From the IMG/VR virus record IMGVR_UViG_3300020595_000084, positions 1-37,545 of that record: a stretch of 37,545 nt of DNA; one strand, 5' to 3'. The notes under the pieces are model-generated. The model did not search any database, was not told the origin of the DNA, and was given only the letters and a program-made list of their open reading frames with translations. The stretch comes from a virus. The number at the start of each line of letters is the position of its first letter. The stretch's first letter is position 1. A program made the translations under genes and the position numbers. Shown in pieces: positions 21,088-22,830 of the stretch.

Positions 21088-21241
21088 TTCTTCTTAAATC
21101 AAGTGTTTTGCGACACGGCATTACTCTGGGTACATTCGTTCTGTACACCTCGCCATCTTCCGAAATCGCTAGTTTATTCTTCCCCCAAAAACGATACCAA
21201 GCTTCTTGCATTTCATCCCAAGTTATTTGCTCAGTTTCCAT
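21053..21241 (-). CDS. Small hypothetical protein downstream of the methyltransferase
   Basis: 62 residues starting METEQITWDEMQEAWYRFWG, with a basic end (KTLDLRRNASKR). The ATG lies within the last codons of the methyltransferase (11-base overlap). Small charged proteins of this type are frequent in phage accessory regions. No recognisable motif. Confidence 0.5.
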   Translation of the reverse strand: METEQITWDEMQEAWYRFWGKNKLAISEDGEVYRTNVPRVMPCRKTLDLRRNASKRTMLPRV

Positions 21242-22355
21242 TATGCATTTCCTTCCATAAAGTCTTCCATGCTAGTTCTGCTGTTTGGGGGACAACTCCA
21301 TTCCCCAAGAGCCTAAGTCTGTCCACCCTGTGCTGAGTCCCATGAGTTGCTCCACCCAATTCGGATTGAGCTTCGGTGACCCTTGGTTCTTCCCACTCGT
21401 ACTGCTCTTCTCCTGGTCTTGCAGGCCATTGTGTTGCTCTACTGCTCCGCATAATTTCAGCACCTTCTTGTTGTGATCGCCTTGACTGTACTGATATTTG
21501 CTCCCTGTCGCATCGTTGGTTGTCGCAGTCGGCCAATTCTTCTTCGCTTCCTCCGCTAGTATCTTGCCCCCCGTTCCGGGCTTGCGACTGCCTGGGTTGC
21601 CTGCTCGTGGGGTTGGCCAATTCATCTGATTCAAGTCTCTCCCCAAGCACTTCTGATTGCTCTCCTTCGCAGTTCTCGCTCCCTCGATGTGGTCGCTTGC
21701 TTGTGGAGTTGCCCACTTGTCCATTCCGTACTTGATGAAGTTTGGCAGTTGATTCAGATGTCCATTGAAGCCCTTTGACTTGTGAAGTACATGCTCCTCT
21801 GAGTTCGTCCCCTTGTAATCCCTCGCAGCTGGCGTTGGGTAGTTTCGCAAGGATGAACACTCGTTTCCTTTGGTGTGGAGCGCCAACTTCTTCCGCACTG
21901 AATATGCCTGTCGCAACTCGGTAACCTTCTTCTTCCAAATCGGACAGGACTCGCCATAACCCCATCGTGGTGTGTCCTGCGACATTTTCCCAAAAGCACC
22001 AAACAGGTCTAATTGCCCTGATGTGCTTGAGGAGGTATGGCCATAAGTGTCTTGGGTCTTTTTCTCCTTGTCGCTTGCCTGCTGAACTGAATGGTTGGCA
22101 TGGATATCCTCCAATGAGTCCGTGTACTTTTCCACGAAACTCTCGTGCAGGGAAGGTTTTAAGATCCGTCCAGATAGGTGCGTTATCCATCCTCCCTTCT
22201 TCAATCTTCGCTGCCATGTTGGCGCAGCAGAAGGCTTCGATCTCCACATTAACGATTGTTCGCACATCCACGCCTGCTCGTCTAATGCCAAGTTCAAGCC
22301 CTCCGTATCCGGTACAAAAGCTGATAATGTTTTGGGTATTATCCACATTATCCAT
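21231..22355 (-). CDS. DNA (cytosine-5) methyltransferase
   Basis: 374 residues. C5-methylase motifs are in order: motif I FCTGYGG (13-19), motif IV PCQ with catalytic Cys86, motif VI ENV (123-125), motif VIII QRKR (162-165) and motif X LGNGVVP (350-356). Between motifs VIII and X lies a polar stretch with repeated L/V-A/G-N/D-x-x-S/N units (172, 215, 247, 275) where the target-recognition domain should be. The start is the ATG just before motif I; a ribosome-site-like AAGG touches it directly, which is too close. The gene probably protects phage DNA from host restriction or marks it. A second, almost equally long ORF is nested in the +1 frame. Confidence 0.9.
   Translation of the reverse strand: MDNVDNTQNIISFCTGYGGLELGIRRAGVDVRTIVNVEIEAFCCANMAAKIEEGRMDNAPIWTDLKTFPAREFRGKVHGLIGGYPCQPFSSAGKRQGEKDPRHLWPYLLKHIRAIRPVWCFWENVAGHTTMGLWRVLSDLEEEGYRVATGIFSAEEVGAPHQRKRVFILAKLPNASCEGLQGDELRGACTSQVKGLQWTSESTAKLHQVRNGQVGNSTSKRPHRGSENCEGEQSEVLGERLESDELANPTSRQPRQSQARNGGQDTSGGSEEELADCDNQRCDREQISVQSRRSQQEGAEIMRSSRATQWPARPGEEQYEWEEPRVTEAQSELGGATHGTQHRVDRLRLLGNGVVPQTAELAWKTLWKEMHNGN
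21272..22348 (-). CDS. Nested +1-frame ORF inside the methyltransferase gene
   Basis: 358 codons without a stop, entirely within the C5 methylase gene. Its ATG (22348) is seven bases after the methylase ATG, and an AAGGA sequence ends six bases before it, good ribosome-site spacing. The product has four W/Y-P/A-T-P/A repeat units (169-, 212-, 243- and 271-) such as NWPTPRAGNPGS and WATPQASDHIEG. It ends with LNPNWVEQLMG (327-337), GWTDL and a Ser/Trp/Gly-rich tail. From memory, proteins with these exact motifs are deposited as hypothetical or methylase-related phage proteins. Either a true overlapping gene or a frame kept open by codon use of the methylase repeats. Confidence 0.5.
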   Translation of the reverse strand: MWIIPKTLSAFVPDTEGLNLALDEQAWMCEQSLMWRSKPSAAPTWQRRLKKGGWITHLSGRILKPSLHESFVEKYTDSLEDIHANHSVQQASDKEKKTQDTYGHTSSSTSGQLDLFGAFGKMSQDTPRWGYGESCPIWKKKVTELRQAYSVRKKLALHTKGNECSSLRNYPTPAARDYKGTNSEEHVLHKSKGFNGHLNQLPNFIKYGMDKWATPQASDHIEGARTAKESNQKCLGRDLNQMNWPTPRAGNPGSRKPGTGGKILAEEAKKNWPTATTNDATGSKYQYSQGDHNKKVLKLCGAVEQHNGLQDQEKSSTSGKNQGSPKLNPNWVEQLMGLSTGWTDLGSWGMELSPKQQN

Positions 22356-22830
22356 CCTTAAATAATTCGAGGTTCTTGTAATAAAGCCTGCGAAAACGTG
22401 GGTGTACATATAGCCCATTCTCCATTCTGTACTTCCACTCATTTCTATAATGTTCCAAGCAATACTGCTCAAAGGCATGTGTGTTCCCATCAAACGCATT
22501 ACAAGCATCCTTCTCTTCCTTGCGCTTCTGTATGAACTTATTACGGGCATATGTAGTGTGGTTGTACAGTATGGACTTATTGGTAACCACAGACCTCCAT
22601 TTAACTTCCTTCCTTATATCCAAGCGACTCACCACGCGCCTCAACTCCTTGAGTATATCCTTTAACGCTTGTGACACACGCGCACCACAAACCTCAAACT
22701 TCTTAGCAATCTCATTGTACTTCAAGCCCTGGAAATAATACAACTCTACCAGAATGCGATCTGCTTCAGACATTAGACCAAGCAAGGTAAATGCATAGTC
22801 CTTCATCTCTATATCATCCACAAAAGTCAT
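22348..22830 (-). CDS. Sigma-70 region-4-like HTH protein
   Basis: 160 residues. Residues about 20-66 (SEADRILVELYYFQGLKYNEIA, cited as SEADRILVELYYF and KYNEIAKKFEV, then RVSQALKDILKELRR) follow the sigma-factor region-4 helix-turn-helix pattern. No region 2 is present, so it is not a complete sigma factor. The C-terminal half is basic, with several Tyr and Asn, and is not recognised. It could redirect host RNA polymerase or act as a late activator. It overlaps the methylase start by eight bases. Confidence 0.65.
   Translation of the reverse strand: MTFVDDIEMKDYAFTLLGLMSEADRILVELYYFQGLKYNEIAKKFEVCGARVSQALKDILKELRRVVSRLDIRKEVKWRSVVTNKSILYNHTTYARNKFIQKRKEEKDACNAFDGNTHAFEQYCLEHYRNEWKYRMENGLYVHPRFRRLYYKNLELFKDG

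Follow-up and report, generated by a model that had tools for sequence, protein, structure and literature searches.

The minus strand of IMG/VR record IMGVR_UViG_3300020595_000084 (positions 1-37,545; "the window" below, that is, the whole stretch of 37,545 nt that was analysed) carries a locus that, judged from its motifs, probably encodes, in overlapping reading frames, the two subunits of a C5 cytosine DNA methyltransferase, the outer frame (alpha) being the putative catalytic subunit and the frame nested within it (beta) a putative subunit for recognition and motif IX. The record is that of a tailed phage, with terminase-like and DnaB-like genes.

Organisation of the overlapping pair

Alpha, of 371 aa when read from GTG 22346 and 374 aa from ATG 22355, matches PF00145 (E 3.5e-32, 112.5 bits) and aligns with the HaeIII and HhaI methylases over motifs I-VIII only. 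These motifs, including PCQ and ENV, and the GN of motif X are invariant in alignment A2. Beta spans 96% of alpha and matches PHROG 1008 "DNA methyltransferase" (E 6.7e-30). The initial annotation of this DNA had described a 358-codon, ATG-started +1 frame inside a C5 methyltransferase gene, with its ATG seven bases downstream of the methylase ATG (22355); its coordinates were confirmed (Table 1), and so was the position of the ATG. As it had also reported, the LPNAS, VGNST, LANPT and LADCD units of the methylase frame have W/Y-P-T-P counterparts in the nested frame, and the motif X region that reads LGNGVV in the one reads GSWGMEL in the other.

Table 1. Coordinates of the features of the alpha/beta locus in the window
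Feature	Position	Strand	Basis or remark
Alpha (outer frame), C5 cytosine methyltransferase	21231..22346	-	PF00145, PHROG 363
Beta (nested, +1 relative to alpha), 358 aa	21272..22348	-	open in homologues, synonymous constraint
TAATGTG start overlap	22344..22350	-	sequence
AAGGA ribosome-binding site	22355..22359	-	sequence; common to both starts
Alpha motif IV PCQPF, catalytic cysteine	22089..22103	-	invariant in alignment A2
Alpha motif VIII GAPHQRKRVF	21855..21884	-	sequence, alignment A2
Beta recognition-unit region, four units	21374..21841	-	nested frame better conserved than alpha frame here
Beta unit starts	YPTP 21841, WATP 21715, WPTP 21619, WPTA 21535	-	
Beta motif-IX-like block LNPNWVEQLMGLSTGWTDL	21314..21370	-	block then motif X in one frame in L251, L146
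Alpha motif X LLGNGV (beta reading GSWGMEL)	21294..21311	-	sequence, alignment A2
Upstream gene, sigma-factor-like	22348..22830	-	PHROG 351, E 1e-7; stop overlaps beta start

In the TAATGTG overlap, the TAA of the upstream gene (22350-22348), the ATG of beta (22348-22346) and the GTG of alpha (22346-22344) run into each other, at 6 nt (beta ATG) and 8 nt (alpha GTG) from AAGGA. Most homologues keep ATGTG or GTGTG in the alignment of relatives. Because they keep this GTG and not the ATG at 22355, alpha very probably starts at GTG 22346. Sequence conservation among the relatives begins at ATGTG/GTGTG and the region upstream varies, so that a single ribosome site serves alpha and beta, probably helped by termination-reinitiation. 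As had been noticed, AAGGA does lie six bases ahead of the nested ATG and overlaps that of the methylase; the nested frame had on this ground been credited with the better ribosome site, a view to be replaced by that of one AAGGA for both frames, given the alpha GTG that homologues keep. The mean Shine-Dalgarno pairing energy at the beta start is -7.8 kcal/mol (46 relatives).

Upstream genes differ among loci L006-L085 while the pair is conserved from ATGTG onwards (window 22344-22359), as if the methylase pair were mobile as a cassette with the start codons as its boundary.

Coding capacity and conservation of both frames

When IMG/VR was scanned with the methylase frame, 80 relatives of 45-85% identity were retrieved; they are related to one another, and some recognition-region peptides were among the scan patterns. 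In all 80 the +1 frame stays free of stops along nearly the entire gene (192-491 codons, with the shortest frames on contigs cut by their end), and the +2 frame holds 7-28 stops (15 in the window gene). Synonymous shuffling of the window gene (2000 replicates) produced 9.6±2.0 stops in the +1 frame and never an open one, which upholds the earlier claim that a stop-free run of this length is very unlikely by chance; likewise, 0/2000 shuffles were open in ten of the eleven genes tested, the shortest (L085) giving 16/2000.

Divergence by codon position was measured in 34 independent pairs of 70-97% protein identity. The differences were.092/.055/.114 from the methylase N-terminus to motif IV,.072/.045/.145 over motifs IV-VIII,.23/.167/.179 in the recognition region,.14/.054/.12 after it and.121/.075/.237 near and beyond the nested stop, as compared with.107/.073/.310 in the neighbouring genes of the same loci. 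Third-position divergence is lowered 2-10 fold in the overlap relative to these neighbours. Divergence at fourfold sites of the outer frame is depleted 3-10 fold: it amounts to.111 from the N-terminus to motif IV,.132 over IV-VIII,.047 in the recognition region and.078 after it, and to.173 past the nested stop, against.338 in the neighbouring genes. The N-terminal third of beta, which lies over motifs I-IV, is thus constrained in the window subfamily (outer-frame fourfold sites.111); it is missing from Paenibacillus and other distant relatives.

The relative weight of the two frames changes along the gene. In gap-free blocks, to which this comparison was confined, amino-acid identity over motifs IV-VIII is.936 for alpha and.830 for beta, and the order is reversed in the recognition region (alpha.800, beta.879). 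Fourfold divergence behaves accordingly, with.139 for alpha and.077 for beta over motifs IV-VIII, and.033 and.172, respectively, in the recognition region. The DNA of the recognition region codes mainly for beta. As beta is the better conserved there, the polar LADS/LANP stretch of alpha is mainly a shadow of the W/YPTP units.

Each of the two frames is coding and subject to purifying selection, and the locus qualifies as an overlapping gene pair. Of the two possibilities raised by the initial annotation, a conserved dual-coding locus is borne out by the open +1 frame in 80/80 relatives, the constrained synonymous sites and the switch of frame in the recognition region, and an old annotation artefact is rejected on the constraint data. 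The analysis of synonymous sites in both frames that it had proposed thus uncovered strong constraint, which passes, in the recognition region, to the nested frame. Some nested conservation does mirror outer motifs, for example EPDVGRVAHGIP against LNPxWVEWLMGFP, and some nested database entries could be mechanical calls, as would be expected if the nested frame did no more than passively reflect the conserved codons and the codon bias of the methylase, or were an artefact of annotation. This explanation is hardly credible in the face of the shuffles, the fourfold-site depletion, the inverted codon-position pattern of the recognition region and the +2 frames full of stops; it is refuted by the constraint data unless some unknown DNA-level constraint has exactly this frame phase.

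The two-frame arrangement has been conserved across phages and prophages of many bacterial phyla. Searches by tblastn with nested proteins matched 57 and 163 phage records, with hosts such as Escherichia, Klebsiella, Pseudomonas, Xanthomonas, Vibrio, Paenibacillus, Lactobacillus, Porphyromonas and Synechococcus; single genomes do carry both frames, some deposited phage records already annotating the two. With profile A3, 437 loci were recovered from species genomes that span many bacterial phyla, and IMG/VR contributed at least 557. We retained 160 diverse loci, selected by the nested motif; a simple pattern recovered methylase motif IV in the -1 frame of the nested gene in 152 of them. The eight exceptions are two loci at a contig edge, whose motif X is nonetheless in the frame expected (L210, L226), five misses of the pattern (L130, L212, L219, L227, L238) and L152, which has an indel. 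A separately encoded nested homologue, which the initial annotation had suggested looking for, was found in none of the 160 loci. Conversely, a third scan selecting by methylase motif IV alone provided 72 distinct loci with motifs VIII and X in frame, and every one has the nested motif (65 by pattern, without any +1 stop ahead of it, and 7 on reading).

Near-identical alpha/beta loci occur at five contig places in one Roseovarius MAG (L123-L127) and at three in one Lihuaxuella genome (L098-L100); these copies probably represent several related prophages.

Beta proteins hold one to seven tandem W/YPTP units, the number of which accounts for beta length (r 0.93). Loci L036 and L040 have an identical catalytic part and different units. 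Since units can be fully different between loci of identical catalytic part (by a crude clustering), the swapped DNA cassettes keep both frames open. Recognition units are exchanged between relatives as DNA cassettes.

Evidence for a putative split enzyme

The C-terminal block of beta, LNPxWVEWLMGxPxGWTDL, resembles the canonical motif IX, LTPRECxRLQGFPDxF, and L349 beta reads LSPRHLEWMMNYPDGW, intermediate toward the canonical LSPRECFRLQGFPDSF. With a scoring matrix made from ten nested blocks (a soft version, which superseded an earlier, sharper matrix), the best match of the beta block is motif IX itself in 6 of 12 canonical methylases, and in all six motif X follows at a distance of 29-33 residues; the match is short, with weak per-protein shuffle P values of 0.035 to 0.98 over the 12. 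In an alignment of the beta profile with canonical methylases by hhalign, the columns of motif X were aligned and those of motif IX were not. As to alpha, it scores below the TIGR00675 cut-off, and an in-frame motif IX (L[TS]PRE..RLQGFP) is present in 0/80 outer frames of the wide set and in the canonical L253 and L254. The absence of motif IX from alpha and the motif-IX-like block on beta form the pattern expected of a split enzyme, which is our best reading of these motifs.

Methylases with intact motifs and stop-filled +1 frames, which had been named beforehand as evidence against dual coding, do exist, but as ordinary single-chain enzymes, which have an in-frame motif IX and therefore need no partner. 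The single-chain phage methylases L253 and L254, with motif IX in frame and +1 frames full of stops, are examples.

Several loci bring the parts of the two frames together. In Gordonia phage GordTnk2 (L251, gp28/gp29), the outer frame goes no further than motif VIII, and the +1 frame unites a PTPVASD unit and SPVFVEWIMGM with motif X (ILGNSVV). In the Brevibacillus locus L146, the beta block and motif X share one frame. Indels in L152 and L146 put the beta-type recognition region and motif X into one frame, and these two are either natural re-fusions or decaying copies. We also observed a canonical-looking C5 methylase truncated in the recognition region, before motifs IX and X, in Streptococcus phage Javan565 (L252). 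In Mycobacterium phage Modragons (L256, 46100-47100), an indel interrupts alpha and displaces the two frames alike; the genes deposited at the alpha locus are called on the opposite strand.

The order of the parts, with motifs I-VIII in frame 0, recognition and motif IX in +1 and motif X in frame 0 again, is that of a one-chain enzyme. This order and the termination of the GordTnk2 outer frame right after motif VIII would also suit a beta made mainly as an alpha-beta fusion, by a programmed +1 frameshift after motif VIII and possibly a shift back before X. We consider such a fusion improbable, and it is disfavoured by the ribosome sites of beta's own: its start is at the conserved ATGTG in the window subfamily and at strong internal sites elsewhere in the family, such as AAAGGAGGATTTTTATG in L097 (p 6e-12 against control picks). 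Moreover, reaching motif X takes two opposite shifts, and no conserved slippery site was noticed at the junction of motif VIII and the recognition region in alignments read by eye.

Beta might instead be a genuine protein with an independent role in the phage, in anti-restriction or regulation for instance, that happens to be encoded over a methylase. Searches of Pfam, NCBIfam and PDB sequences with beta, singly and as profiles, brought no useful match, which leaves it without a fold or family assignment, and the long N-terminal extension of the window subfamily would fit an independent role as well. AlphaFold models of beta alone reach pLDDT 48 (window beta) and 63 (a short diverse beta); as these models are of low confidence, the lack of a Foldseek match against PDB is uninformative. 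A chain that needs its partner in order to fold might be expected to give poor models, but such models are no evidence for that need. The BFVD matches of the weak model are apparently deposited phage proteins of the same kind, some of them named methyltransferase. We regard an independent factor as unlikely, given that beta never occurs apart from the methylase in 160 loci, that alpha consistently lacks motif IX and that the motif-IX block stands at canonical spacing before motif X in the natural fusions.

The two-subunit enzyme may then be envisaged as follows. Alpha would supply the S-adenosylmethionine-binding and catalytic motifs I-VIII as well as motif X. Beta, starting at ATG 22348 beside the alpha GTG and from the same ribosome site, would supply the DNA-recognition region of tandem W/YPTP units and motif IX, and so complete the small domain. 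The two chains would assemble into one functional enzyme whose sequence specificity is set by beta. By analogy with multispecific phage methylases, its likely use would be to protect phage DNA from varied host restriction enzymes. The suggestion of the initial annotation that the nested protein is a recognition partner fits every test run, as far as subunit function can be read from sequence, and is sharpened here by the motif IX match and a split-enzyme precedent, neither of which it contained.

Relation to known methylases and significance

There is a known precedent for a C5 methylase of two chains whose frames overlap. In the bacterial restriction-modification enzyme M.EcoHK31I, the gene of the large polypeptide contains, in another frame, the coding sequence of the small one, just as the gene of the first phage polypeptide contains that of the second. 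The phage family differs in being broad, in a beta that covers 96% of alpha (the M.EcoHK31I beta is short, 176 aa), in the common start site and in the one to seven W/YPTP units. M.EcoHK31I (YGGCCR) has motifs I-VIII and X on the large polypeptide and only motif IX on the small one, and its recognition region was predicted on the large subunit (PMC3404938). The distribution of motif IX on the second chain and of I-VIII and X on the first is thus alike, with the reservation that the phage beta match is short, and this likeness is one of motif arrangement. M.AquI (CYCGRG) is split between motifs VIII and IX into two chains (PMC3404938), a type of split that GordTnk2 and L146 resemble; its small chain also has motif X and the split lies within the recognition region, whereas in the window motif X is on alpha and the genes are nested.

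The multispecific phage C5 methylases of the SPR, phi3T and SPbeta type are orphan enzymes with tandem exchangeable recognition units. They are single chains in one frame with motif IX in frame, like L253 and L254, in contrast to the two frames of the window. PHROG 1008 and the "Mte8-like protein" (Escherichia phage K1ind3 ORF29) are the same nested family, deposited beside an overlapping methylase and annotated by name only: the literature searched describes neither the overlap, nor the selection, nor a subunit role. This search yielded no publication on a phage methylase pair with overlapping genes; PMC8008677, considered as a candidate, was rejected since it concerns another gene. What is new is the extent of the overlap, the common start, the phage-wide distribution and the two-frame cassette exchange.

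We lean, by a small measure, towards seeing here a very widespread and undescribed family of phage and prophage methyltransferases with an obligately nested specificity subunit, co-initiation in the window subfamily and two-frame cassette swaps that would generate new specificities. The predominance of the other frame explains why many phage "methylases" have a junk-looking polar LADS/LANP stretch: the DNA there is mainly coding in the other frame. If the two-subunit reading is true, these pairs (about 250-490 codons) would rank, both in length and in breadth of conservation, among the foremost same-strand overlaps of double-stranded DNA phages, and such methylases may be inactive when cloned alone. 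They would also provide a naturally split methyltransferase whose recognition units are modular, and dual-frame evolution by cassette exchange would become testable.
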